Positions 286 through 31,193 of a stretch of 64,000 bases of DNA are shown in pieces; position 1 is the first letter of the stretch, and every line of letters begins with the position of its first letter. This stretch comes from Flavobacteriales bacterium (GTDB lineage Bacteria; Bacteroidota; Bacteroidia; Flavobacteriales_F; PHOS-HE28): contig JAGFIV010000064.1 of NCBI GenBank assembly GCA_024103275.1, forward strand, positions 1-64,000. Direction: 5' to 3'. Made by a program: the position numbers and the translations under genes. The notes under the pieces were generated by a model. It made no database searches. It saw only the letters and a program-made list of their open reading frames with translations, and was not told the DNA's origin.

Positions 286-1053
286 TTATCCGTAAATGCT
301 GTTGAGCAGACCGGCCAGCCTGATCCCGGCCTTGAGCAGTTGCTGCTCCATCAGCGGCCATTGCTCATAGCGGTATTCGTATGATAGGTTAAGCCCCCGC
401 TCCTTTGGGTAGATCCGTGCCCGGTAACCGACGTTCTCCTGCGCCCAGTCAGCGATGGTCCCTTGGCTCCATGCATGGATCTGCTCTTTGGAGGCATGGT
501 CCAGGCTGTGGGCCAGTTCGGTGTAACTCAGCTTCGTGCCGTCCACCAGGCTCTCGTCCCAAACGTGGTGCAGGTTGGTCCCCTTCTTGAACCACTGGAC
601 CTGGAAGGAATTGCCGCCACGGTCATCACCCTTGCCCACGTGCAGCGGTTGGTGCAGGTCGCCCACCAGGTGGATGAGCACCTTCAGGCAAAAGGCTTGG
701 TGAGCGGGGGTCAGCGTGTCGCTCTTCAAGGCTTCCACCATCCGCTCAATGGCCTCCACCACATCGCCGTTCGGGTTCTTTTCCGCCGTGGCATACGTAC
801 TGCCGTCAGGTATGGTCACCCAATGCCAGTCGCGCATGTGGTCATAGGCGTGGTCGCTCTTGATGTCGTCCATCCATGTGGACACCATGGCCATGGAAGC
901 GGGGCCCAGGATGCGTTGCACGGCCTTGCGGGCTTTCCTGGACAGGTGCTGCGCGGCGATCTCGCCCACCACCCGGTGCCCGGTCTGTCCCCATCCCAAT
1001 ACCGTGGCCGGTTGGAGCAAGAGGGCGACAGCGAGGATCTTCAGCGGTTTCAT
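286..1053 (-). CDS. S1/P1-type zinc-dependent nuclease, secreted
   Basis: A 255-residue single-strand-specific nuclease or 3'-nucleotidase of the S1/P1 family, exported to the periplasm or outside. A signal peptide (residues 1-20, ending ATVLG) is followed by Trp21. In this family the mature N-terminal Trp is itself a zinc ligand. Further trinuclear-zinc ligands are visible: GHRVVGEIA, WMDDIKSD, a His in DWHWVTIPDG, the block HLVGDLHQPLHVG near residues 113-125, and HHVWDESL near 150. Length and motif order match the family. The gene is monocistronic, and a -7-like box (TAACCTTG) ends only 4 nt before the ATG. It probably scavenges nucleotides or phosphate from extracellular nucleic acids. 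Confidence 0.93.
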   Translation of the reverse strand: MKPLKILAVALLLQPATVLGWGQTGHRVVGEIAAQHLSRKARKAVQRILGPASMAMVSTWMDDIKSDHAYDHMRDWHWVTIPDGSTYATAEKNPNGDVVEAIERMVEALKSDTLTPAHQAFCLKVLIHLVGDLHQPLHVGKGDDRGGNSFQVQWFKKGTNLHHVWDESLVDGTKLSYTELAHSLDHASKEQIHAWSQGTIADWAQENVGYRARIYPKERGLNLSYEYRYEQWPLMEQQLLKAGIRLAGLLNSIYG

Positions 1054-1057
1054 GATG

Positions 1058-1065
1058 CAAGGTTA
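1058..1065 (-). promoter_or_regulatory. Putative -7 promoter box of the S1/P1 nuclease
   Basis: The minus strand reads TAACCTTG, one mismatch from TAnnTTTG. It ends 4 nt upstream of the ATG, implying a very short or absent leader. No clear -33 element was seen. Confidence 0.4.
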
Positions 1066-1116
1066 GGGACTTCGCGGCGGGAATGGCATCGTAAGGGGAC
1101 GGACATGGTGGGCCCG

Positions 1117-1157
1117 GATGATCCGTCCTTCCGGATCATCGCGGACGGCCTGTCCGC
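1117..1157. repeat. Two adjacent hairpins in a gene-free stretch
   Basis: GATGATCCG (1117-1125) pairs with CGGATCATC (1132-1140) around a 6-nt loop. GCGGAC (1141-1146) pairs with GTCCGC (1152-1157). There is no U-tract, so neither is a canonical intrinsic terminator. The surrounding region 1054-1366 shows no gene I can support. Confidence 0.5.
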
Positions 1158-1366
1158 CAACTGCCCGACCTGCCCAGGAGGCACGGGTGACGGTTGCCTC
1201 CGGTGCCGGTCCTTATCATCCGTGGACACCCAATGTCGCAGGGATGACGTAACTTAAGCCTGTGGCAGGGGAGGTGGCAATGGCCGGGGCGTGGTATTGG
1301 AGGCCTTGCGGCCATTGCGGCATGTTCTTGGGGGAGGATGGCAAATGAATTGAATGCAACTGCATC

Positions 1367-1657
1367 ATGGCCAACGAGCAGGACAAGTCGATCAGCGCGG
1401 AAAACAGGGGGGGCGATGCGGCCAATGAACCGGGCAGGGGAGGCGGTGCACAGTTGCGGAAATGGCTGTTGCGGGCACAGGCCATCGTGGGGGTGCGCAC
1501 CCCCGGCGTGGGCAGGCGGCACGGCATGAGCGAGGCGGCGGAGCGGAAGGCTCGCCGTGAGATGAATGCGGACGTGCCACCGGTGGAAGCAGCCGATGAG
1601 GGGTCGTCCGAAGGAACGCCCGAGGCCGGGACGGACCCCGGCAAGGCTCAGTCGTAA
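1367..1657 (+). CDS. Hypothetical small hydrophilic protein
   Basis: A 96-residue frame beginning MANEQDKSIS, highly charged and rich in Gly, Ala, Glu and Arg, with one weakly hydrophobic stretch (LRKWLLRAQAIVGV, about residues 31-44). No family recognised. The first codons (GCC AAC GAG CAG GAC AAG) have the GC-rich third positions typical of neighbouring genes, the main argument that it is real. Its end overlaps the tail of the convergent DksA-like gene by 10 nt. No signal peptide or ribosome-binding site is evident. It could be a spurious frame in GC-rich DNA. Confidence 0.4.
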   Translation: MANEQDKSISAENRGGDAANEPGRGGGAQLRKWLLRAQAIVGVRTPGVGRRHGMSEAAERKARREMNADVPPVEAADEGSSEGTPEAGTDPGKAQS

Positions 1658-2100
1658 TCGCCTTCTTCCGGGTTGCGGACGGGAGCCTCGGGCTCGGGGC
1701 GCGGCTCGGGCCGTTGGTTCTTCGCCTCCACGGTCAAGGTGGCATGCGGCACCAGGCGGAGCCGTTCCTTGGGGATCAATTGCCCGGTCATGCGGCACAC
1801 GCCGTATTCGCCGGTACGGATCCGGCCCAAGGCCGCCTTCAACTGGCTGATGAACTTTTCCTGGCGTACCACCGAACGGGTCAGGTCCTCGCGTTCCATG
1901 ATCGTGGTGGCATCCTCGATGTCGTCATGCACGGAGTAGGTGTCGTCCGTGGTGTTGGCCGAAAGGCGTTGCAACGAGTCCCGGTTCAGCCGAAGCGTTT
2001 CCTCCGCCTGCGCCAGTTTCGCATGGATCAACTCCTCAAATTCCTTCAGGTCCTCTGCCGAATAACGCGGCTTGTCGGTGTTCGTGGTGATCGTTCCCAT
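1648..2100 (-). CDS. TraR/DksA family transcriptional regulator (C4 finger degenerate)
   Basis: A 150-residue protein related to DksA/TraR, which act through the RNA polymerase secondary channel. It starts with a long helical segment (EDLKEFEELIHAKLAQ and beyond, about residues 15-100) like the DksA coiled coil, with acidic residues in the middle. It then has the family-typical block RIRTGEYGVCRMTGQ followed by IPKERL. Only one Cys of the usual four is present (CRMTG instead of CxxCG), as in Bacteroidota members that have lost the zinc site. The C-terminal tail is rich in Pro and Glu. The start at 2100 (MGTITTNTDK) is chosen because upstream codons look non-coding and a -7-like box (TTCCTTTG, 2108-2115) lies just ahead. 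Confidence 0.85.
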   Translation of the reverse strand: MGTITTNTDKPRYSAEDLKEFEELIHAKLAQAEETLRLNRDSLQRLSANTTDDTYSVHDDIEDATTIMEREDLTRSVVRQEKFISQLKAALGRIRTGEYGVCRMTGQLIPKERLRLVPHATLTVEAKNQRPEPRPEPEAPVRNPEEGDYD

Positions 2101-2360
2101 TACGGTGCAAAGGAACGAAGCATTTCGGCGATGCGGTGCCCCTGGACCGGAGGGAAGGAAGGCGGAAGGAATCGGCCGCCCGTTGCCTTCGTATGGTCCG
2201 GCCATGTGCATTTCGTGTCCGCCCGTCGGGTTGGATCGTAGCACAAATTCCACGGTGGTGATGACCGCCCGGCAGACAAGGAAGGCCCGTCGGCAAGGCG
2301 GCACCTGGCCTTTCGCGCCCCCGGCGCGATTATGGATGGCGGGCCGTCAAACTCCGGAAA

Positions 2361-2819
2361 ATGCGTCGCAATGATCCCATCAAGGCGGTCCGGGAGATCC
2401 GGAACCTCCTGGCGGATGGCCGGCGGAACTACCTCGCCATGGCACATCGCGTGAATGATGAAAAAGCGAGGACCTTGCTGAAGGAGATCGGCAACGGGCA
2501 CGACCTGCTCGAACACGAGCTCGAACGCAGCACGGGCGGTTTGGGCGGCACGAACAAGGCAACCAAGGCAACCGTGTACGGCACGATGGAGCGGATCTGG
2601 TTGACCGTGAGGGATGTGGTGAACAACACCGATGAACTGACGGTCCTGGCCGATTGCGAATACCAGGAACGGAACCTGATGAACCGCTACGTGGAGTTGC
2701 TGGGATCCATGTCGTTGGACGAACGGATCCGTGCGATCTTGATGCGGCAGTACGGCGAGTTGGAGGAGAACGTGCTTCGCGTGCGGTCCATTCGCGCCGG
2801 CATGGAGAACCTGGCCTAG
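2361..2819 (+). CDS. PA2169/DUF2383-like four-helix-bundle protein
   Basis: A 152-residue, almost entirely helical soluble protein. The pattern of an N-terminal LxxLLxDGRxNY region, then ARTLLKEIGNGHDLLEHEL, an E-R-Y-x-E-L-type third helix and a final GELEENVLRVRSIR helix resembles the DUF2383 / PA2169 ferritin-like four-helix bundle. Members are often general-stress proteins of unknown biochemical function. I see no signal peptide and no obvious metal-binding EXXH pair. It stands alone, divergent from the DksA-like gene and convergent with osmC. Confidence 0.6.
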   Translation: MRRNDPIKAVREIRNLLADGRRNYLAMAHRVNDEKARTLLKEIGNGHDLLEHELERSTGGLGGTNKATKATVYGTMERIWLTVRDVVNNTDELTVLADCEYQERNLMNRYVELLGSMSLDERIRAILMRQYGELEENVLRVRSIRAGMENLA

Positions 2820-2903
2820 GCCTCCACCTCGGTGAAGAGCAGGCACGCAAACGTTAAGCGGCATACGTAGGCCTTCCGGTGATGAACGCGTCGGACCGGC
2901 TGG

Positions 2904-3302
2904 TCAATCCAACAGGTCCGTGTGCACATCGATGGCCCCGGTCAAGGTGCGGTGGATGGGGCAACGGTTGGCGATGTAAAGGAGGCGTTCACGCTGCTCC
3001 GCCGTTAGGTTGCCCGTGAAGCGCACCGTACGCTTGATATGGGTTACATCGAACGAATCACCGTGCTCGATGCTCACGTGGGTGTCGATGGCTTCCAGCG
3101 GCCAGCCTTTGCGGTCCGCATACATGCGCACCGTGGCGTTGGTGCATCCGCCAAGGGCCGCCGCCAGCAATTCATGCGGGCTGAAGCCCATGCCCTCGCC
3201 ACCGTTGTCGGTAGGCTCATCGGCGATGATCAGGTTGGTCGCTGTGCGGATCTCGGTGCGGTAATGTTCGCGCCCGATGTGCGCGTTGATCGAAACGTTC
3301 AT
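2904..3302 (-). CDS. OsmC-family peroxiredoxin-like protein
   Basis: A 132-residue OsmC/Ohr-fold protein, probably reducing organic hydroperoxides with a Cys pair. It contains the hallmark segment SPHELLAAALGGCTNATV with the peroxidatic Cys53. The second Cys114 lies in ANRCPIHRTL. These match the two redox cysteines of the family in spacing and context. The start at 3302 (MNVSINAHIG) gives normal family length; longer in-frame extensions upstream lack coding character. Transcribed alone. Physiological substrate not predictable from sequence. Confidence 0.9.
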   Translation of the reverse strand: MNVSINAHIGREHYRTEIRTATNLIIADEPTDNGGEGMGFSPHELLAAALGGCTNATVRMYADRKGWPLEAIDTHVSIEHGDSFDVTHIKRTVRFTGNLTAEQRERLLYIANRCPIHRTLTGAIDVHTDLLD

Positions 3303-3617
3303 GATCGATGATGGATGGGATGTTCCACGAGCAGTAAGGACCCGAATGGCCCGTACGTCCGAATTACAAGGTAGCGCATGGTGATGATACCTCCGTCGGC
3401 CGGTGTCCAATTGCTCCATGGCTGCCGGGTTCGACTAGACAATGCGCGCGCCGGGAAAAGGTTCGCGGTCATGGGGATGGAAGGGCTGTTGCCCATGTTA
3501 TCGAAGCTGGTCCCGTAGGCATCGTTGGGTCGGCGGATCCCCGCGCATGCCTGCATTGTGCTGCATCAGGGGTTGTGTGCACGGTCATTGGACCGCGGCC
3601 GTGCGCACGGAGGGGGA
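3303..3617. other. Intergenic stretch without a supported gene
   Basis: Lies between the osmC start and the stop of the helix-hairpin-helix gene. Frames here are short and in poor codon context. I see no RNA fold, repeat or terminator that I could defend. Confidence 0.5.
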
Positions 3618-5792
3618 TCAGAATTTCACCCTCAGCTCCAGCTTCAGGTCGCTCTTGTTGGCCCCGTAGATCTCATCCAGGCCCGAACCGATGGAATTGC
3701 GATCGGTGTATGCGGTGCTGCCGTAGCGGGCCCACAGGTCCAGGTTGCGCCGCACGCGCCAGCGCACCATGGCATACCATTTCATGCCCCGGCCGTAAAT
3801 GGGCGGAAGGCTGAACACGCCCGGGATATCGGATTCGAAGGCATAGATGCGCGCATCGTAGCTGTCCGTGGCGAAGAGCATGATGCGCCCGGTGAACTGG
3901 AGTGGCCCGCGCATGGGCCGGTGGATCAGGTCCTGGTAGAGTAGGAAGCCATGCTGGACCTTTTGGTCGCCGCGCCGGTAGTCCACATGTTCCACCCGCG
4001 TGCGCAAGGTGACGCCGCGCGACACCTTGTAGCTGGCGTTGAAGCGGTAGTTGTCCTGGCGGGTGTCGACCAGGGGCAACACGCCGGGCAGCGATTCACC
4101 GGTGTTCCTCGGCTTCACCTGCCTGCGGTACTTCACATAAAGCTGCGTTCCGCGCGAAGGGGTCCAGGTGAGCTGTCCGAGGGTTTCAAGGCCATGGCTG
4201 GGCGCGTTGGTCTGGAATCGCAGCCAAGGGAAGGAGAATTGGTCGAAATAGGCGTTGAACACCCATTGCCTGTTGGGCTTCACCTCGATGCCCGTATACA
4301 GCCCCTGCTCATTCCAGGGGTTGGTTCCCTCGGAGAAGGCGCTGCTGTACAGGCCATGGAAGTCGCGCTGCAGGTTGCGGTACAGCAGGGCCAGCGAGAG
4401 GCGCTTGTCCAGCGCCACCAGCACGCCGCTGAGTCCGGCCAGGCCACCGTTCGCGCTGCGTGCGGCCTCGCCGAACCAGATGACATTGCGGAAGGGCACG
4501 TTCCAGTCGAGGCCGTAGGTGGTGTTGCCCTTGCCTTGGAAGTCGAATTGGTTGTACGGATATATCCTGGTCTTCAGCAGTTCATGCCCGAAGCTGACCT
4601 GCGCCGCGGTGGCCCCCACCGTCCATCCTTGGCCCCGGTAGGTGAGGTGGCCGCCGTAGATGAATTCGTCCAGGATGTTCTTCTTGTCCAATTCGCGGAA
4701 GGTGCGGTGGTATCCGTCCTCCTGGAAGGAGCTGAAGGTGACCAGGTCCGCATCGCCGCCGAAAGCGGTATCGGTGCCGGCCACCACGTTGGCATCGTAT
4801 TTCTTCTTGCTGATGAAGGCCGTTCCCTCCAGGCGCTTGCCGAGGTCCATGGTGACGCCCGCCCCGCGCAGGAACTGGTTTTCGTTCACGCTGGTGTATG
4901 GCGCCAGGCCCTGCGCATTCTTGGTGATGTTCATGGTGTACGCCGACTTGCGGGCGAAGCTCAACCCGCTGGAGAAGGTGAGGCCTTGGCCGAACTGGGC
5001 CTGGAAATCGCCGAGTGCCACGGCCTTGAACGGCCCAATGTCGCGCAGGAAGAGATGGGCGGAATAGAAGTCGAACCCCTGCTTCTGGGTGCCCTTGAAG
5101 AACTCCTCGCCCTCATCCTTCTCCGCCGTGATGCCGAAGCTGAGGTTACGCCGATATTGGAAGCGGTATCGCGTATACACCTTCCACGGGCTGCCGAGGT
5201 ACACTTTATTGTTCTTCCGCAAGGAATCCATCACGGCGGGGTCGCCCACATCCGGTAGCGGGTTGCCATTGGGATAGTGGTAAGGGCTGTTGAACGGGTC
5301 GCGGCCGAGGAAGCCTCGCTGCTGCTGGATCTTGATCTGTGTGCGGGCAAACCATTCGCTCTTCCCCTGTTTCAGCATGATGCCCAGCTTGATGGGCGAG
5401 CGGCCCTCGCCGCTGATGGTGACGAAGGGCCGGATGAGCTCCAAGGTGGCCAGGTCCAGCCCGTTCACGGTCTGCAGTTCGTAGATGCTGATGAATTTCC
5501 CGTACTTCTTGATGTGCTGGAGGATGGCATTGATCTCGATGTCGGAGAGCAGGTGCAGTGAGCCGAGCTCGGTGGCATTGGTCCGGTTCAGGTCGATCGG
5601 GTCATCCAGCCGGTCCATGAGCTGGTCCGCCAATTCGGCGAGGTCCACATCGCTGTCGTCGCCCAGTTGTTCGGCAACGGTGGCGATGCGCTGCTCGATC
5701 ATGTCGCGCAGCTCGGGCGAAATCTCCTGTGCCCGCAGGCGTAAGACCCCTGCGATGCACAGCAGGAACGCGAGCAGGAGGAAACGCCTCAT
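3618..5792 (-). CDS. Outer-membrane protein with N-terminal helix-hairpin-helix (ComEA-like) domain
   Basis: A 724-residue exported protein with a signal peptide (about residues 1-21, ending LRLRAQ). Residues about 65-125 carry two HhH motifs: DLNRTNATELGSLHLLSDIE and then YELQTVNGLDLATLELIRP, as in ComEA-type DNA-binding repeats. The remaining ~580 residues are rich in alternating aromatic/polar strands ending LELRVKF, typical of a beta-barrel inserted by BAM. The start overlaps the stop of the PorV-like gene by 4 nt (ATGA), so the pair is translationally coupled. The HhH suggests contact with DNA or a protein partner at the envelope, but the function is not established. Confidence 0.82.
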   Translation of the reverse strand: MRRFLLLAFLLCIAGVLRLRAQEISPELRDMIEQRIATVAEQLGDDSDVDLAELADQLMDRLDDPIDLNRTNATELGSLHLLSDIEINAILQHIKKYGKFISIYELQTVNGLDLATLELIRPFVTISGEGRSPIKLGIMLKQGKSEWFARTQIKIQQQRGFLGRDPFNSPYHYPNGNPLPDVGDPAVMDSLRKNNKVYLGSPWKVYTRYRFQYRRNLSFGITAEKDEGEEFFKGTQKQGFDFYSAHLFLRDIGPFKAVALGDFQAQFGQGLTFSSGLSFARKSAYTMNITKNAQGLAPYTSVNENQFLRGAGVTMDLGKRLEGTAFISKKKYDANVVAGTDTAFGGDADLVTFSSFQEDGYHRTFRELDKKNILDEFIYGGHLTYRGQGWTVGATAAQVSFGHELLKTRIYPYNQFDFQGKGNTTYGLDWNVPFRNVIWFGEAARSANGGLAGLSGVLVALDKRLSLALLYRNLQRDFHGLYSSAFSEGTNPWNEQGLYTGIEVKPNRQWVFNAYFDQFSFPWLRFQTNAPSHGLETLGQLTWTPSRGTQLYVKYRRQVKPRNTGESLPGVLPLVDTRQDNYRFNASYKVSRGVTLRTRVEHVDYRRGDQKVQHGFLLYQDLIHRPMRGPLQFTGRIMLFATDSYDARIYAFESDIPGVFSLPPIYGRGMKWYAMVRWRVRRNLDLWARYGSTAYTDRNSIGSGLDEIYGANKSDLKLELRVKF

Positions 5793-6604
5793 TTGAAGCG
5801 GTAGTTCAGGTTCACCATCGGCGTCAGGCCCAGTTGGCTGCGCATCACCGCAGCCAGGTCCAGGTCCAGTTGGCCCATCACGAGGCCCACGCCGAAATGC
5901 GCCTTGGCGGGTCCGCTGCTCACGCCGGTGCGCAGGAACAGCGCCTTGGCCGGCCGGTATTCCACGCCTGCATGGTATTGCTCGGGCCGGTCGATGTCCT
6001 TGGTCACCTCCCCGGTCAGCACCACGTGCTCATTGAAGGTGTATCCCAGGCCGCCGCCGAGCACGGTGGGCATGCGCTCCTCGTAGGGCCCGCCCAGCTT
6101 GGCGCGGTTGGGGTTGTACAGATGTGCCCCGATCCATAGCTTCTCGGTCAGCCGCGCCTGCACGCCCAGCTCGGCGCTGATGGCGCCGGTACTGCCGTAA
6201 TCCTCCCCCAGGCGGATGTTGAAGTAGTCGAGCTGGATGCCTGCGCGCAGCCCTTCGCCGAGCTCCATGGCGTATGCCAGCCCGAAGGTGCGCTGCGCAT
6301 ACAGGCTGCCGCCGAAGGAGCTTGCGCTGACCGCGAATACGCCCTTGCCCATGGGCAGCGCCGCCGCCAACCCCTGCATGGCCAGGTCGGGTGCCAGCCA
6401 ATGCTGTTGGTAGAAGGCGCCGACCACCGGGTGCTCCAGCCCGGCCAGCCCGGCCTGGTTGCCGTTCACGCACCAGAGGTCCACCAGGGTGGTGCCGGCC
6501 TGGCCCATGCCCGCAAAACGGGCACCACCGGCCACGGGTCCGTCGCCGGCCCATGCCATTGCTGGAAGAAGGACCGCGGCGAGGAGGATGATCGGTTTGC
6601 GCAT
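5789..6604 (-). CDS. PorV/PorQ-like outer-membrane barrel protein
   Basis: A 271-residue exported protein with signal peptide MRKPIILLAAVLLPAMAWA. It then shows the GGARFAGMGQAGTTLVDLWCVNGNQAGLA pattern over residues about 27-55, the 'gGaRaagMGgA...d..a...NPAgla' opening of PorV/PorQ/UPF0164 and FadL-like barrels. It ends in strand NLNYRFK. First gene of a two-gene operon with the HhH outer-membrane protein. A -7 box lies 5 nt before the ATG. It could be a T9SS-associated shuttle (PorV/PorQ) or a structural partner of the downstream protein. The length is short for PorV, so I keep the call generic. Confidence 0.75.
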   Translation of the reverse strand: MRKPIILLAAVLLPAMAWAGDGPVAGGARFAGMGQAGTTLVDLWCVNGNQAGLAGLEHPVVGAFYQQHWLAPDLAMQGLAAALPMGKGVFAVSASSFGGSLYAQRTFGLAYAMELGEGLRAGIQLDYFNIRLGEDYGSTGAISAELGVQARLTEKLWIGAHLYNPNRAKLGGPYEERMPTVLGGGLGYTFNEHVVLTGEVTKDIDRPEQYHAGVEYRPAKALFLRTGVSSGPAKAHFGVGLVMGQLDLDLAAVMRSQLGLTPMVNLNYRFK

Positions 6605-6609
6605 CGGCC

Positions 6610-6617
6610 CGAAAGTA
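6610..6617 (-). promoter_or_regulatory. Putative -7 promoter box of the PorV-like/HhH operon
   Basis: The minus strand reads TACTTTCG and ends 5 nt before the ATG. The same TAnnTTCG variant occurs upstream of several other genes in the window. Confidence 0.45.
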
Positions 6618-6702
6618 GCGTAGTGCGGGGAATGTTAGCCTTGCGGCCAAACAGTCCCGGATCGGGAGAACGGCGCGTGCGCTCTACCTTCGACCCCTCA
6701 CC

Positions 6703-7242
6703 ATGGCCATGGTCACATTGCACGACAAACGGTTTGAGCCGTTCATAACGGCGCAGGAGCTGGATAAAGCCATTGATGCGGTCGCGGCCAAGGTGACCGC
6801 GCGGTATGCCGGCAAGGTGCCCCTGTTCCTGGGGGTGCTCAACGGCAGTTACTTTTTCGCCTCGGAACTGATGAGGCGCCTGGACTTCAACTGCGAGATC
6901 TCCTTCGTGAAGGTGGCCAGCTACCATGGTACGGTGAGCAGCGGCACGGTGCGCGAGCTGATCGGCCTGCAGGAACGCATCACCGGGAGGGAGGTGGTGC
7001 TGGTGGAGGATATCGTGGATACCGGCAACACCATCGCGCATGCGATGGATGCATTGCAGGAGAAAAGCCCCGGCAGCCTCGCCGTTGCCAGCATGCTGAT
7101 GAAGCCCGACGTCTATAAGAAGGACATCCCGGTGGATTACGTGGCCATGAAGATCCCCAACGTGTTCGTGGTGGGCTCCGGCCTCGACCATGACGGGTTG
7201 GGCCGTAACCTGCCGGGCATATATCGGATCGTGGAAAACTGA
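6703..7242 (+). CDS. hpt: Hypoxanthine phosphoribosyltransferase
   Basis: Converts hypoxanthine (and usually guanine) plus PRPP to IMP (GMP) in purine salvage, in the cytoplasm. The 179-residue protein has the PRPP-binding signature VEDIVDTGNT at residues 101-110, an LFLGVLNGSYFFASEL segment (about 41-56) that forms the PPi loop, and the aromatic region VVGSGLDHDG near the end that stacks on the base. First gene of a plus-strand run with adk 30 nt downstream. A TAnnTTCG-type -7 box (TACCTTCG, 6685-6692) is just upstream. Met1 or Met3 could be the start. Confidence 0.95.
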   Translation: MAMVTLHDKRFEPFITAQELDKAIDAVAAKVTARYAGKVPLFLGVLNGSYFFASELMRRLDFNCEISFVKVASYHGTVSSGTVRELIGLQERITGREVVLVEDIVDTGNTIAHAMDALQEKSPGSLAVASMLMKPDVYKKDIPVDYVAMKIPNVFVVGSGLDHDGLGRNLPGIYRIVEN

Positions 7243-7272
7243 ACCAATAACGGCGCCCGAGGGCGCATCGTC

Positions 7273-7848
7273 ATGAGCAAAAGGAACATCGTATTGTTCG
7301 GCCCCCCGGGTGCCGGCAAGGGTACGCAGAGCGCATTCCTGGTGAAGCGGTACGGACTGGTGCATCTCAGCACCGGCGACCTGCTGCGTGCGGAGATCCA
7401 GGCGGAGACCCCCCTTGGATTGCAGGCGCAGGAGGTGATGAGCTCCGGCGAGCTGGTGCCCGACGAGGTGGTGGTGGGCATGATCAAGAACCGCATCGAT
7501 GCCTCGCCGGAGGCCCAGGGCTTCATCTTCGACGGGTTCCCCCGCACCCTGGCCCAGGCGGAAGCCTTGGACAACATGCTGCAGAAGATCGGCAAGCCCA
7601 TCTCGGTGATGCTCTCCCTGGAGGTGGAGGAGCAGGAACTGGTCAAGCGCCTGTTGAACCGTGGGGCCACCAGCGGCCGAACGGACGACCGCAGCGAGGA
7701 GGTGGTACGAAAACGCATCGCGGAATACCGGGCCAAGACCGAGCCGTTGAAGTCCTATTATGAAGGCCAGGGCAAGCTCAGGAAGATCGACGGGGTCGGT
7801 ACCATTGAGGACATCACCCGGCGGCTGACCAAGGCCATCGACGGCTGA
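7273..7848 (+). CDS. adk: Adenylate kinase
   Basis: Catalyses ATP + AMP to 2 ADP. Residues 10-17 (GPPGAGKG) are the P-loop. The AMP-binding segment LSTGDLLRAEI, the EGFxR-equivalent FDGFPRT and the conserved RLLNRGATSGRTDDR are visible. At 191 residues it is the short form with a reduced LID and no zinc-binding cysteines, as is common in Bacteroidota. It sits between hpt and obgE, an arrangement that groups nucleotide salvage with a GTP/ppGpp-responsive GTPase. Confidence 0.97.
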   Translation: MSKRNIVLFGPPGAGKGTQSAFLVKRYGLVHLSTGDLLRAEIQAETPLGLQAQEVMSSGELVPDEVVVGMIKNRIDASPEAQGFIFDGFPRTLAQAEALDNMLQKIGKPISVMLSLEVEEQELVKRLLNRGATSGRTDDRSEEVVRKRIAEYRAKTEPLKSYYEGQGKLRKIDGVGTIEDITRRLTKAIDG

Positions 7849-7875
7849 CCGGCCGCAACCACGGATCGCCCTTCG

Positions 7876-8900
<1,025 letters not shown>

Positions 8901-8901
<1 letters not shown>

Positions 8902-9482
8902 TGGCATGGACGGAGGCCCTATTGGCCGCTGACCGTGCGGCTTTCCTGGCGGTGAACGGCGCCCACAATGCCACCGCGGACCAATGGATGGGCATGCTGA
9001 GCGAACCCTTGGCATGGGCCCCGCTCTATGCCATCTTCCTGGGCCTGGTCAAATGGCGCTGGGGCTGGCGTGGCCTATGGCTGTCGCTCCCGGTGATAGC
9101 CCTGATGATCCTCTGCAGCGACACGGGGTCCGTGGTCCTGTTCAAGAACACCGTGCAGCGGCTCAGGCCATGCCATGCGCCCGACCTTCAAGGCTTGGTA
9201 CACTTGGTGGACGGGCATTGCGGCGGACGGTACGGGTTCATCTCCTCCCATGCATCCAACCATTTCGCCGTGGCCGTTTTCATGATCGGTGCCTTGCGCC
9301 GAAGGCCGTGGTGGGTGGTGCCTGTCCTTTTGGCCTGGGCCGGGGTGGTGGCCTATAGCCGCATCTACCTCGGGGTACATTACCCCGGCGATGTGATCGT
9401 GGGCGCGATCTATGGTTCACTGGTCGGAAGCTTGGCCTATGTGTTGTTCCGGGTGGTCCATCAACGGTTCATGGAGCGATGA
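8901..9482 (+). CDS. PAP2-family membrane phosphatase
   Basis: A 193-residue polytopic membrane protein of the type 2 phosphatidic acid phosphatase family. The three catalytic motifs are present: KNTVQRLRP (K-x6-RP), SSHASNH (variant of PSGH) and SRIYLGVHYPGD (SR-x5-H-x3-D). About five hydrophobic segments surround them. Likely substrates are phosphatidate, PgpB-type lipid phosphates or undecaprenyl pyrophosphate; sequence alone does not decide. Overlaps obgE by 1 nt and crcB by 4 nt (ATGA), so it is firmly in the operon. Confidence 0.92.
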
Positions 9483-23602: not shown

Positions 23603-25411
23603 TCAATAGCAATACCTGCCCTCCGCGATCATCTTCTTCGCGATTGCCTTGTGCAGTTCCGCCGTGTTCAGGTTCGTGTTCTTGCTGAACCGCTTCGCGC
23701 CCATCAGCATCGCTTGGCGCTCATCGCCCTCGGCGAAGTTGCTCACGGCCTCCTTGGCGTACTTGTGGATGCGGTCCGCCGCCTCGTGGACATACAGTTG
23801 GCACATGGCGATCTGCTCCGCGACGTTGCCGGCACCTTTCAGGCCTGCCAGCTTCAATGTCCGCAGCAGCACGCTTTCCGCCAGGTAGGTATTGATCACC
23901 ATGTCGGCGATATGCATCAGCGTCTCCTGGTGCTTGGCCAGCTCCATGCCCAGCTTCTGCGCGGCACCGCCGGCCGTCATCAGCACGGCCTTCTTGAAGT
24001 TGGCCACCATGCGCTTCTCGTCGGCCAGCAGGCTGTCGTCCGGTTCCGGCATGTCGGGAATGCCGAGCAACTCGTCCGCCACGGCCTTGGCGGGACCCAG
24101 CAGGTCCAACTGGCCTTTCATGGCGCGCTTCAGCAGCATGTCCACGATCAGCATGCGGTTGATCTCGTTCGTGCCCTCGAAGATCCGGTTGATCCGGCTG
24201 TCGCGGTAGGCCCGCTCCACGGGGCTTTCCTGGCTGTAGCCCATGCCGCCGTAAATCTGCACGCCCTCATCCACCACGTAGTCCAGGCATTCGCTGCCCG
24301 CCACCTTCAGGATCGCTGCTTCCGCCGCGAATTGTTCCATGCCCTTCAACTGGGCCGTGGCATGGTCCGCACCATCGGCCGAGAGCTGGGCGATCGCCCG
24401 TTCAATATCATGGCTGCAGCGGTACACCGCGCTCTCCACCACGTAACAATACGTGGCCTGGTCGGCGAGCTTTTGGCGAATGGCACCGAAACTGCTGATG
24501 GGCCGCCCGAATTGGTTCCGCTCGTTGGCATAGCGGACGCTGTACCCCACGGTCTCCTTCGCGCCGCCCAATGCCGCTCCCGCCAGCTTGATCCGGCCGA
24601 TGTTCAGGATGTTCACCGCGATCTTGAACCCATTGCCCCGTTCGCTGAGCATGTTGCCCACGGGCACCGGGCAATCGTTGAAGAACACCTGCCGCGTGCT
24701 GCTCCCCTTGATGCCCATCTTGTGTTCCTCGGGGTTCAGCGTGATGCCGCCGAAATCCTTCTCCACCAGGAAGGCGCTCAGGTTCTTGTCCGCCTCGCCC
24801 GTCTTGGGGTCCACCACCTTGGCGAATACCGTGAACAGGTCCGCGAAGCCCGCGTTGGTGATCCACATCTTTTGGCCGTTCAGCATGTAGTGCTTGCCAT
24901 CGGGTGCCAACACCGCCTTGGTCTTGCCGCTGTTCGCGTCGCTGCCGCTGCCCGGCTCGGTCAGGCAATAGCTGGCCTTCCACTCGCCGGTCGCCAGCTT
25001 GGGCAGGTAATGCTTCTTCTGTTCATCGGTGCCATAGTACAGCGTGGGCAGCGTACCGATGCCCGTATGTGCCGCCATGGCCACGCTGAAGCTGTGCCCG
25101 GCCCCGGTCTTCTCCGTCACCAGCATGCCCGTCACGAAATCCTTGCCGAACCCGCCATATTCCTCGGGTATCGATATGCCGAGCAGCCCCAGCTCCCCGG
25201 CCTTTTCAACGATCGCCGGCATCAGGCCCTCCTGCATGGCATCGATCTCGTTCAGCTTCGGCCACACTTCCGCTGCAAGGAAGTCCGTCGCCGACTTCGC
25301 GATCATTTGTTGCTCCTCGTTCAACTCCTCTGGGATGAAGATATCCGCGGGTTCGCTTTCGCGGATCAGGAATTCGCCGCCCTGCAGGGCCTTCTTGGTT
25401 TCTGTGCTCAT
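23603..25411 (-). CDS. fadE: Acyl-CoA dehydrogenase (FadE-like, ~600-residue form)
   Basis: 602 residues, FAD-dependent, first oxidation of fatty-acid beta-oxidation. Features: substrate/FAD region CLTEPGSGSDANS (about 150), KMWITNAGFADLF, the FAD adenine segment EQFAAEAAILK, and the catalytic-Glu block RIFEGTNEINR (about 410-420). The extra C-terminal ~170 residues after the core are the same size class as B. subtilis FadE (YusJ). It lies downstream of fadN and fadA on the same strand but has its own promoter and a palindrome matching that of marR. Confidence 0.95.
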   Translation of the reverse strand: MSTETKKALQGGEFLIRESEPADIFIPEELNEEQQMIAKSATDFLAAEVWPKLNEIDAMQEGLMPAIVEKAGELGLLGISIPEEYGGFGKDFVTGMLVTEKTGAGHSFSVAMAAHTGIGTLPTLYYGTDEQKKHYLPKLATGEWKASYCLTEPGSGSDANSGKTKAVLAPDGKHYMLNGQKMWITNAGFADLFTVFAKVVDPKTGEADKNLSAFLVEKDFGGITLNPEEHKMGIKGSSTRQVFFNDCPVPVGNMLSERGNGFKIAVNILNIGRIKLAGAALGGAKETVGYSVRYANERNQFGRPISSFGAIRQKLADQATYCYVVESAVYRCSHDIERAIAQLSADGADHATAQLKGMEQFAAEAAILKVAGSECLDYVVDEGVQIYGGMGYSQESPVERAYRDSRINRIFEGTNEINRMLIVDMLLKRAMKGQLDLLGPAKAVADELLGIPDMPEPDDSLLADEKRMVANFKKAVLMTAGGAAQKLGMELAKHQETLMHIADMVINTYLAESVLLRTLKLAGLKGAGNVAEQIAMCQLYVHEAADRIHKYAKEAVSNFAEGDERQAMLMGAKRFSKNTNLNTAELHKAIAKKMIAEGRYCY

Positions 25412-25520: not shown

Positions 25521-25692
25521 GGGCGTGTCCCTCGCCGCCCACGGGCCGCCCACGGGCCGGGCCATCCGCTGTGGCTGCCTCGTTGCGCCGGGTGCGGCAG
25601 CCGCTCCGGGGTCTGCTCCTTCGTCGCGGCCTCCTCGCTCGCGCCGCATCCACGGCGCACCATCGGCAGGCCGCCGCTGCTGTCCCTCACGC
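25521..25692. repeat. 172-bp structured repeat element, GGGCGTGTCCC...TGTCCCTCACGC
   Basis: Begins GGGCGTGTCCC, continues with two tandem GCCGCCCACGG units, GGGCCATCCGCT and a GGCTGCC...GGCAGCC stem, contains GCGCCG-CATCCA-CGGCGC, and ends CCGCTGCTGTCCCTCACGC. From memory, sequences with these ends (GGGCGTxxCCC ... xTCCCTxACGC, with GGGCxATCCGCT inside) are dispersed intergenic repeats in many Bacteroidota genomes. I know no settled name. No protein is encoded. It probably moves in trans. Only one copy is in this window. Confidence 0.55.
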
Positions 25693-25736: not shown

Positions 25737-26312
25737 ATGCGAACCGGCCCGACCTTGACCCGCTTCCTTCTCACCATCCTGCCCACGGCCACGCTGGCGG
25801 CGGTGGTGGTGGACATGCGCGAAAGGCTCCACGCCCGCATCGGCTCCTTCAGCGGCCGCAACCTGCAGCCGCACATCACGCTCTGCTTCCTCGACCTGCC
25901 CGAAACGCACGAGGCCGACATCATACGGGCCATTGAAAGTGGTGTGGCCGGTCAACGGCCGTTCACGCTGCACTATCGTGGCATCACGCACTTCCCCGAT
26001 CGGCGCACCATTTACATCGATCCGGTGGAGAAGGAAGCCATCGCGACGGTTCGCACACCCATCGTTGCTGCACTACGCCAGCAGCAGGCGCTAAGTCCTG
26101 CCCTTCGTGAGACGGGCCATCCACACCTCACCATCGCGGCCGGACTGATGCCCGCACAGTTCGAAAAGGCGTGGGGGATGTTGGGCCTCTGTGGCGTGGA
26201 AACGGCGGGCCAGGTAGGGGAGGTAGTGCTGCTCAAACGCCTGCTGAGGCAAGGGGAGCGGTATGCCCTAGTGCAAGCTTTCCCGCTTCACGGAACGGAG
26301 GCTGCGCATTGA
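25737..26312 (+). CDS. thpR: 2'-5' RNA ligase/2',3'-cyclic phosphodiesterase-like 2H protein
   Basis: 191 residues of the 2H phosphoesterase superfamily. The two catalytic H-x-T motifs are HITL (46-49) and HLTI (130-133), spaced as in ThpR/LigT. The N-terminus shows a family-like LHARIGSFSGRNLQPHITL. Such enzymes open 2',3'-cyclic phosphate RNA ends; the in vivo substrate is unknown. The gene is in opposite orientation to the fad genes around it, and its start codon lies in the right arm of an inverted repeat next to the repeat element. It therefore looks like an insertion in the fad locus. Confidence 0.85.
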   Translation: MRTGPTLTRFLLTILPTATLAAVVVDMRERLHARIGSFSGRNLQPHITLCFLDLPETHEADIIRAIESGVAGQRPFTLHYRGITHFPDRRTIYIDPVEKEAIATVRTPIVAALRQQQALSPALRETGHPHLTIAAGLMPAQFEKAWGMLGLCGVETAGQVGEVVLLKRLLRQGERYALVQAFPLHGTEAAH

Positions 26313-27528: not shown

Positions 27529-27632
27529 TGTCTTATGTCCTATGCAGGACTGTTTGTTGCTTGATGGAAGCGCTTGTTGTTCGTCCGTTGCGCTGCACTC
27601 GCATGGTACAGTCTTGCATAGGACATAGAACA
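27529..27632. repeat. Inverted pair of CATNGGACAT repeats between fadA and the four-helix gene
   Basis: 27534-27553 and 27608-27627 are a 20-bp inverted repeat with one mismatch (TATGTCCTATGCA, G or A, GACTGT). Extended, each contains CATAGGACATAAGACA (minus, 27529-27544) or CATAGGACATAGAACA (plus, 27617-27632). The motif recurs three more times at 28135-28263. One arm is 8 nt from the fadA start, the other 4 nt from the four-helix gene stop. Confidence 0.75.
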
Positions 27633-27636
27633 AGCG

Positions 27637-28017
27637 TTAGCTCCGTACGGGACGTTTCTTGTGTTTGGTCTCCAATTGCTCCTGAAGCCTGAAGATCCGG
27701 TTCATGATATGGTCGAGTTCGCTGGTGATCTTGTCCGATTGGGCACGCGTGATGTATTCGAGCTCCCGGGCAATGATCGTTTGGGTGTATAGCTCAGCTG
27801 CCGACCCACAGGCAATGCCCAGGAAATGGTAGAATTCACCGTCATGATTGCGAGCGGCACCCTCAGCAATGTTGCTCGGTACGGAGACGCCTGCACGTTG
27901 CATCTGACTTGCAAGGCCGTAGACCTCCTTCTTCGGAAATTTCTCCGTCACGCGATAAACTTCCACGGAGAGGTCCAAGGCTTGCTTCCATACAACGAGA
28001 TTCTTGAAGCGGTTCAT
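27637..28017 (-). CDS. Four-helix-bundle protein (23S rRNA intervening-sequence protein/S23 family)
   Basis: 126 residues. Signature elements of the family are at the start (NLVVWKQALDLSVEVYRVTEKFP) and in the centre (SQMQRAGVSVPSNIAEGAARN), followed by FYHFLGIACGSAAELYTQ. The family was first seen as the protein encoded in 23S rRNA intervening sequences and is structurally related to Avd of diversity-generating retroelements. Chromosomal copies have no established function. Here it sits between fadN and fadA, and five CATNGGACAT-type repeats surround it. No reverse transcriptase is nearby. Confidence 0.93.
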   Translation of the reverse strand: MNRFKNLVVWKQALDLSVEVYRVTEKFPKKEVYGLASQMQRAGVSVPSNIAEGAARNHDGEFYHFLGIACGSAAELYTQTIIARELEYITRAQSDKITSELDHIMNRIFRLQEQLETKHKKRPVRS

Positions 28018-28116
28018 GGGATTTCAGGGTTTGTAAGGGATTGTTCACATGGGGCGAAATGCATAGCCCAGCGGCCGCCTAATGACATGGGGTTAAAGGC
28101 CTAAGCTCATTGCATC

Positions 28117-28263
28117 CAGCAATCTTGCAACCGTCGTTGGACATTGGACAACAGGCCTCCCCTCATGGCTCTCAGCAATCCTGCAACCTTCATTGGACAT
28201 CGGACAGAGGATTCTTCACTGGTGGTTCTCAGCAATCCTGCAATCGTCATAGGACATCGGACA
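28117..28263 (+). repeat. Three imperfect ~56-bp tandem repeats with CATNGGACATNGGACA cores
   Basis: Unit starts CAGCAATCYTGCAA at 28117, 28173 and 28230 (periods 56 and 57). Each holds a core: 28135-28150, 28191-28206 and 28248-28263. The middle ~25 nt vary. The array ends 5 nt before the fadN stop codon (28269) and is upstream of the four-helix gene. Same motif as the inverted pair at 27529-27632. Confidence 0.8.
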
Positions 28264-28268
28264 GTTCC

Positions 28269-30758: not shown

Positions 30759-31193
30759 TCATGTGAAGAGGTCATGGTCGTCCAGCAGGAGGTTGATCTT
30801 GGCCATCACCTTGTGGAAGGCTTCGAGTTCCTTGGCGGGGATGCGTGCCTGCACGGCCTTGTTGAAGCGCACCACCGTATCGCGGCTCACATCGCGCATC
30901 TCCTTGCCCCGTGCGGTGAGGCGCACCCTTGCCATGCGTCCGTCCGTGCCGTCCGGCACGCGTTCGATCAGGCCCTGGTCCTCCATTTTCCGCAGCGTAC
31001 GCGTCAGGCTGCGTGCCTCCATGCCCATCTTGGGACCCAACTTGGTGCTGGGCGTCCCCTCCGGGTCGATGTTCAGCAAGACGTAGCCGATGCTCATGGA
31101 ACCACCATGGGCCGTAGCTTGTTCATTGTAGAGCCGCATAATGCGGTGCCACGCCCAGCGGATGGGGTGGTCGATGGTCTCTTCAGGTCGCAT
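30759..31193 (-). CDS. MarR-family transcriptional regulator of the fad locus
   Basis: 144 residues. The winged-helix DNA-binding region is readable: GTPSTKLGPKMGMEARSLTR (recognition helix) then KMEDQGLIERVPDGTDGRMARVRLT (wing with conserved D-x-R). Flanking helices form the dimer interface. First gene of the marR-fadN run. A perfect 14-bp palindrome overlaps its promoter and a near-identical one is at fadE, so I infer autorepression plus control of beta-oxidation, probably relieved by an acyl-CoA. The ligand is inferred, not seen. Confidence 0.93.
   Translation of the reverse strand: MRPEETIDHPIRWAWHRIMRLYNEQATAHGGSMSIGYVLLNIDPEGTPSTKLGPKMGMEARSLTRTLRKMEDQGLIERVPDGTDGRMARVRLTARGKEMRDVSRDTVVRFNKAVQARIPAKELEAFHKVMAKINLLLDDHDLFT

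Follow-up and report, generated by a model that had tools for sequence, protein, structure and literature searches.

A dispersed repeat family of Bacteroidota with a conserved three-way-junction fold and a possible boundary role in accessory-gene exchange

The element of the window and its neighbours

A non-coding element of 172 bp is located between an acyl-CoA dehydrogenase gene and a 2'-5' RNA ligase-like gene in the window, that is, the whole stretch of 64,000 nucleotides of Flavobacteriales DNA that was analysed. Both neighbours were named from sequence without a family search, and in several congeners a different gene is found in the place of the ligase-like gene. The features are as follows; the alignment sets A1 and A3 are described below.

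23603..25411, minus strand: left neighbour, acyl-CoA dehydrogenase gene
25521..25692, plus strand: whole element, 172 bp, set by the conserved GGGCGTG and CTCACGC ends in 15 aligned genus copies and by pattern search
25523..25527, plus strand: P0 helix, 5' strand GCGTG, with 98.7% (A1) and 100% (A3) of cells paired and compensatory changes
25528..25557, plus strand: P1 region, a hypervariable side arm holding tandem GCCGCCCACGG, with strong arm differences at the same site of congeners and at other orthologous sites
25559..25569, plus strand: P2 base, 5' strand GGGCCATCCGC, with pairs GGG, CA and GC and symmetric mismatches in between
25570..25675, plus strand: P2 distal arm in the long GC-rich form of the window's genus, from the genus alignment
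25676..25686, plus strand: P2 base, 3' strand GCTGCTGTCCC, from the genus alignment and covariation
25688..25692, plus strand: P0 helix, 3' strand CACGC, with the same pairing evidence as the 5' strand
25737..26312, plus strand: right neighbour, 2'-5' RNA ligase-like gene
27567..28264, no strand: segment between thiolase-like and hydroxyacyl-CoA-dehydrogenase-like genes, from comparison of the window with locus L572

The initial annotation had described a bounded element at this position, and its motifs were located exactly: GGGCGTGTCCC at 25521, GGGCCATCCGCT at 25559-25570, TGTCCCTCACGC at 25681-25692, and the tandem GCCGCCCACGG. The full pattern with variable gaps matched once in the window and never in 100 shuffles, whereas the two short motifs alone, with two mismatches allowed, occurred about as often as by chance (10 against a mean of 8.3, and 23 against 16.0). 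Open reading frames that cross the element were taken for frame accidents, and its description as non-coding was upheld. The stems and fixed-looking ends that had been noted are supported by comparison of copies; folded alone, the window copy has no stability beyond that of shuffled sequence (z -0.18), so that its structure rests solely on that comparison. In the own genome (137 contigs, 3.58 Mb) a total of 10 DNA matches were found including the window copy, two of them being halves of one other copy. With these and the homologues found elsewhere, the outcome that would have refuted the annotation, a single copy without homologues, does not hold.

Breadth and fold of the repeat family

The element of the window is one copy of a large non-coding repeat family of Bacteroidota in which the fold is kept and most letters change. 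Alignment of 15 full copies of the genus revealed the conserved blocks GGGCGTG, GGGCYRTCCGCT and GCYGCTNCYRTCC(C/G)TCACGC. The core consensus comprises P0 (GCGTK/MACGC), the P2 base (GGGCYRTCCGC/GCYNCYRTCCC) with a hypervariable arm, and P1 as a hypervariable side arm. A match to sister copies was found in 18 of 39 genomes, the own genome included, and 17 of these 18 are among the 23 genus members. Analysis of 296 genomes of the phylum revealed a 17-base end pattern in 27; all 27 belong to the window's class, to which 73 of the genomes were assigned, and the other 223 had no match. The reversed control gave one match. This supports the view of the initial annotation that the element is a structured repeat dispersed between genes of Bacteroidota. 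A scan of a genome collection gave at least 120 stretches, and 78 of the 80 titles among the matches listed are Bacteroidota; carriers include Flavobacterium, Pedobacter, Mucilaginibacter, Aquimarina, Chitinophagaceae, Saprospiraceae and others. The spirochaete matches (L181, L200) lack an upstream core and appear to be due to chance.

One subtype of this family is Flavo-1 of Rfam (RF01705), which recognises the type with arms like ATCTTTT...AAAAGGAT, on the opposite strand; the criterion of a core sequence and helices shared with Flavo-1 was met. RF01705 matched 44 of 78 genomes scanned, 32 of them above the curated score, with at least 52 matches in each of seven genomes of a Flavobacterium-like genus (g22) and no match in 14 control genomes. 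The window copy gave no match to RF01705 up to E=10, and its orthologues given to Rfam were left unmatched by RF01705, as were most of the other subtypes given. Among six genus members scanned at E<=0.001, matches were found in G004, G006, G010 and G022 and none in G000 (the own genome) and G002; among 20 phage and plasmid loci the gathering score was reached only by one plasmid (L556). RF01705 covers one subtype of a far wider family. A second model, R1, was built from 27 copies of other genera, none from the window's genus, and matched 28 of 39 genomes and 21 of the 23 genus members. In the own genome R1 found short copies (best E=2.9e-11) and missed the window copy, its top match in the window being 31050-31093 (E=0.79). 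At the orthologous site of G010 it does find a copy (L320, E=0.00076), and through this shared position the window copy is linked to the family. The long P2 distal arm is probably the reason why both RF01705 and R1 miss the window copy. An autonomous long form with an internal gene was not found, since 51 end motifs without a catalogued full copy had no convincing distant start; a start-and-core match 2.9 kb away in L310 (core with two mismatches) was judged chance.

The layout is a three-way junction formed by P0 (GCGTK/MACGC), the side hairpin P1, and P2, which consists of GGG, a mismatch, two pairs, a 3x3 loop and GC. Two sets of copies were used for its assessment. Set A1 holds 15 genus copies with recognisable ends, so that decayed copies are absent. 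Set A3 holds 24 copies of one Flavobacterium site, located by flanking DNA with ends cut by a loose motif, and likewise omits decayed copies; it was drawn from the best 30 loci among 146 matching genomes, of which six (L398, L399, L403, L404, L405, L407) were excluded as truncated, decayed, split, absent, remnant or elsewhere. For the 12 core pairs, 98.9% of cells are paired in A1 and 99.3% in A3, four pairs in each set show double changes, and cells changed on both sides number 15 and 19, respectively. The covariation score was reached by none of 500 shuffles in either set, and the fold is supported by this covariation.

A total of 139 copies of 59 to 213 bp, a few of them mis-cut, were taken from the genome-collection scan, the viral scan and the phylum loci for the counts of flanks, orientation and strand. 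These copies were picked by an exact or near-exact end motif, and conservation of the motif letters is therefore uninformative. The last P0 pair is G-C in 89 copies and T-A in 50, with no mismatches. In phages and plasmids P0 occurs as GGCTT/AAGCC, GCGAT/ATCGC, GCATT/AATGC, GCATC/GATGC and GTGTT/AACAC, and is fully paired in 17 of 18 copies, a count that leans towards success because the ends were set by eye. On the Flavo-1 strand the core contains 14 G.U against 1 A.C, at five positions against one (cells count sequences, not events), and this asymmetry suggests that folding is required of the Flavo-1 strand. The wobble of the arms is mixed (plus strand): 26 A.C against 12 G.T in P1, and 15 against 50 in P2. 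Folding energy is lower on the Flavo-1 strand in 113 of the 139 copies.

Sites, enclosed genes and phage copies

The copies are mostly intergenic, and 26 of 122 overlap a crude pick of open reading frames. The left flank is T-rich (82, 72 and 62% T at -3 to -1 in the 139 copies), and the right flank is purine, A/G-rich and not T-rich. Of 124 copies, 56 have the stop codon of a long frame no more than 90 nt from the left end, compared with 27 for the right end. The four orientations relative to flanking genes are represented by 37, 33, 29 and 20 of 119 copies, and with no clear bias among these 119 copies cis-regulation of a neighbour gene was rejected. Replication-strand bias, sought as a sign of single-strand transposition, was not found (75 against 59 of 135). 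Evidence of insertion by an IS200/IS605-type or MITE-type route is limited to the flank bias, and the sites that were read are either old or gained with neighbour genes.

At the window site, 14 of the 16 loci fetched by the dehydrogenase gene contain the element, one has a decayed copy and one has none; among four further loci anchored by the ligase gene alone, L319 and L323 contain it and L329 and L333 do not. The P1 arm differs strongly between congeners at this site. At the Flavobacterium site, where 24 of 30 loci have an alignable copy, the arms fall into two main types that differ considerably and are dispersed over species 77-92% alike in the matched DNA. These loci include an inverted copy and a copy interrupted by a different repeat, and some of them but not others have an additional gene at the left end, which looks serine-hydrolase-like by eye. 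Arm differences also occur at further orthologous sites, judged from 14 pairs in which both flanks correspond; some of these pairs have similar arms. Since the arms differ and the orthologous sites and core persist, site and core are inherited, and the arms, and often the gene on one side, are exchanged. The initial annotation had proposed to look for empty sites in sister strains. Old occupied sites with swapped arms and variable neighbour genes were recovered, and no clean empty site with a duplication was found among the sites compared.

Several further arrangements were observed. A second palindrome close to TCCCGATAGCTATCGGGA replaces P1 or the start of the core in the elements of L381, L383, L387, L395 and L402 and in L194 and L270, as if one repeat invades another, and the element of L403 is interrupted by another inverted repeat with the ends AATGTCATTAAGTTAAG. 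In L377 (51-160 and 504-613) a Flavo-1 copy and a 5S rRNA gene are separated by some hundreds of bases. Similar long copies in G105, G255 and G179 are near contig ends, possibly next to an rRNA operon or another long repeat. In L216 and L264 the element lies five bases after the stop of a gene whose end, as we take it, resembles RteC of conjugative transposons.

Among the R1 matches listed, most copies have no close partner. The 22 close pairs (<=5.5 kb) among them, read by hand, comprise 12 that face each other, three that face away and seven in the same direction; against an expectation of 0.25, 12 of 22 facing pairs among these matches gives P=0.003. All 12 facing pairs are in the window's genus, and the 10 that were read enclose one to about five open reading frames. 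Two of the three facing-away pairs were read, and both enclose core-type genes. A Pfam scan of ten proteins enclosed by facing pairs found a match in five, four of them above the curated cut-off: a XamI restriction enzyme fused to a methylase, a DUF87/HerA-type ATPase, AlbA_2 with HATPase_c_4, and DUF4238. One ExoX-like end fell below the cut-off and five proteins had no match. PADLOC models matched three of the ten, L574 only partially. The enclosed accessory genes include XamI restriction-modification, HerA and a Schlafen-like protein.

Comparison of genomes revealed several loci at which the element is at the edge of a variable segment. G003 and G001 share flanks (84% and 97%) and have different genes between their facing copies; 84 and 40 bp beside one copy are not alike. 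Segment 27567..28264 of the window lies between genes that we take, from their sequence, to be thiolase-like and hydroxyacyl-CoA-dehydrogenase-like. In G010 the equivalent interval contains about five open reading frames between two facing elements, and homology with the window stops 6 bp and resumes 30 bp outside these two elements. No element was found in this segment of the window by DNA match, pattern or R1, and a different small open reading frame is present there (27637-28017, minus strand). Inside one element 283 bp are common to G010 and G009, which are divergent beyond this stretch, so not all of the inner DNA is swapped. In G022 and G004 a 5.3-kb insert with genes that look kinase-, response-regulator- and secreted-protein-like by eye lies between two direct copies, which in G022 are 95.8% identical over 167 bp; one copy is present in G002, G006, G344, G345 and the window. 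No element was found within about 1.5 kb of the kinase gene of this insert in 13 other loci. In G486 a gene together with a copy forms a segment that is missing from G207, G395 and G409.

Copies are present in chromosomes, plasmids and single-stranded DNA phages. Full elements were found in 13 of the 32 viral contigs with end-motif matches, namely L284, L287, L293, L294, L300, L303, L304, L305, L311 and L313, with L301, L309 and L314 as repeats of L294 or L284; the 19 other contigs look like chance. The 9.2-kb contig L300 holds three copies (443-9138) at the ends of gene blocks and a gene that is MuA-like transposase by eye. In L284/L309, L294/L301, L304, L305, L313 and L467 the start of the copy is offset by -1 to +1 bases relative to a long gene's stop codon, and the proteins of these genes are all homologous (20-66% identical). 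The L467 protein matches the terminase large subunit of PHROGs, the L309 protein matches records annotated as terminase large subunit, and the proteins other than that of L467 have no PHROGs or Pfam match. Relatives were fetched with the element-bearing terminases as query, and among 78 terminase ends with enough DNA behind them the element is present in eight by strict motif and in at least two more on reading (L471, L484). The distance between stop and element is at most 2 bases in nine distinct, divergent viral terminase genes and at most 20 in two others (L533, L551). R1 found the element at all eight terminase loci given and not at L552, where the terminase is 84% identical to that of L294 and a terminator-like hairpin with a T run takes the place of the element. 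Five other terminase ends of named or deposited phages (L557-L560, L566) have no element there. Full copies are also carried by microviruses (L554, L561, L562, L563), plasmids (L555, L556) and, away from the terminase, a tailed phage (L565); in an inovirus (L564) the element ends are visible and there is no R1 match. Two of the microviruses carry the element in opposite orientations relative to their genes. Few matches were obtained when named phages were searched with the elements by Blast.

Possible roles of the element

A shared trans-acting gene, which the initial annotation had proposed to look for, was not found, as any one protein cluster occurs in at most 6 of the 95 neighbourhoods. 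Suspicion fell first on RAYT genes, since class 2.6 RAYT genes of Bacteroidetes are reported to adjoin atypical repeated structures (PMC6006769, of which only a part was available). PF01797 matches (E<=0.001) are absent from four of the 22 genomes with at least 20 copies. A Flavo-1 match was found at only one of 40 PF01797 loci scanned with Rfam, about 1 kb off (L117), and a copy within 200 bp at one of 50 loci scanned by motif (L140). By these two scans RAYT genes are not the partner. The GT[AG]G foot tetranucleotide of REP sequences is not met, the consensus ends being GGGCGTK and MACGC. An origin as a REP sequence moved by a TnpA_REP/RAYT protein is not supported, and we regard it as very improbable. 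The own genome does contain a RAYT-type gene (L148, contig C77, 798-1673) with tandem GGGCGTGGCG... repeats within its reading frame; these are a separate REP-like family and resemble reported REP-in-gene insertions of subclass 2.4.

Compared with known systems, the family shares its core, ends and three-helix layout with Flavo-1, which matches family copies on the opposite strand; Flavo-1 differs in that it fits one arm type and is described as RNA. As far as the accessible parts of the sources go, Flavo-1 was listed in 2010 without a function (PMC2864571), appears in a review table (PMC9029176), and could not be assigned a function in a transcriptome of F. psychrophilum (PMC9723704); the literature searched, mostly without subscription papers and in part available only as excerpts, contained no mention of cargo, phage, terminase or arm swapping for Flavo-1. 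Like REP/REPIN sequences with TnpA_REP (RAYT), the copies are structured and intergenic, number dozens in a genome and often follow genes, but the family has no nearby RAYT gene and no GTAG-type foot, forms a three-way junction and occurs in pairs around accessory genes. Integron attC sites have variable arms on a conserved fold, are often close after stop codons, carry gene-sized cargo and are bounded by the core boxes R'' and R' (RYYYAAC...GTTRRRY). The family resembles them in the first three features; it differs in being dispersed and not arrayed and in its ends, which with GCGTT...AACGC have the opposite order, so the attC core boxes are not met. BOX, Correia-type and other bacterial MITEs are short, non-coding, dispersed, structured repeats, as are the copies described here, but this family is conserved class-wide with compensatory change, and target duplication was not shown for it.

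Overall, we propose that the element is a shape-read boundary element for accessory-gene exchange in the mobile gene pool of Bacteroidota, with an unidentified acting protein. This reading is tentative, and we give it a probability of roughly 0.4. One strand would fold as a three-way junction of which the core and the ends may be the recognised parts, and recognition of these parts would leave the arms free to vary or be replaced. By inference, recognition would take place on folded DNA, either transiently single-stranded or as a cruciform, a recombinase or nuclease (none was identified) would work on the element in trans, and its action would favour the attachment of new segments where old copies are present. 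On this view the window copy would mark the junction between the dehydrogenase and ligase-like genes. The family, its fold and breadth, the persistence of sites with arm swapping, the presence in phages and plasmids and the examples at edges of variable segments are observed; a working boundary mark read by a protein is inferred from them. A stronger form of the proposal appears doubtful, namely an unrecognised cassette system of Bacteroidota in which paired folded ends allow single accessory or defence genes to be exchanged at fixed chromosomal sites and ride tailed phages, single-stranded DNA phages and plasmids by way of a shape-reading protein, Flavo-1 being an end subtype and not an RNA gene.

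Passive recombination, an RNA role and a gene-end role remain possible. Homologous recombination between repeats could yield the same pattern without dedicated machinery, which weakens the boundary reading. The copies would then be a passive or selfish repeat of REP/MITE type that seeds such recombination, with cargo exchange as a side effect. The high copy number in the seven Flavobacterium-like genomes, the recurring arm types, the T-rich left flank and the short conserved termini are in keeping with a repeat of this type. Compensatory changes that build up at orthologous sites nevertheless argue for upkeep of the fold after insertion, an autonomous partner was not seen, and the same position is occupied in terminase genes that are just 20-66% identical, although repeated insertion there is not excluded; we consider this explanation unlikely. 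The Rfam view, that transcription of the Flavo-1 strand yields a folded RNA which works as a small RNA or within the 5' or 3' end of a message, draws on the lower folding energy of that strand and on the wobble asymmetry of its core. In L062, L063, L219 and L244 the copy moreover seems by eye, without computation, to lie between a start codon and what we take to be a promoter-like motif. It is difficult to reconcile with the lack of a clear orientation preference, with the two oppositely oriented microvirus copies, and with F. psychrophilum, in which Flavo-1 matches are sense or antisense to transcripts and many are untranscribed (PMC9723704, available in part). An RNA role is accordingly considered quite unlikely.

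The position at terminase stop codons suggests a local role that the boundary reading does not explain. A signal at gene ends, such as a message stabiliser or a transcription terminator that is factor-dependent or bidirectional, would account for this exact position, for the excess of stop codons near the left end and for the hairpin with a T run that replaces the element in L552; A5+ and T5+ tracts in 12 of 139 P1 arms are also like those of two-way terminators. Against such a signal, 20 of 119 copies are located between divergent genes, an ordinary-looking terminator precedes the copies at one well-read site, and the right flank is A/G-rich and not T-rich. We hold a gene-end role to be improbable.

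This study defines the conserved core and connects the family with gene turnover, anti-phage genes and phage genomes. Loci L569-L577 contain varied defence-type genes between facing elements of the window's genus and are a possible source of new defence genes. If the boundary reading is true, the family would represent a new gene-moving route for Bacteroidota, and the acting protein could be sought directly.
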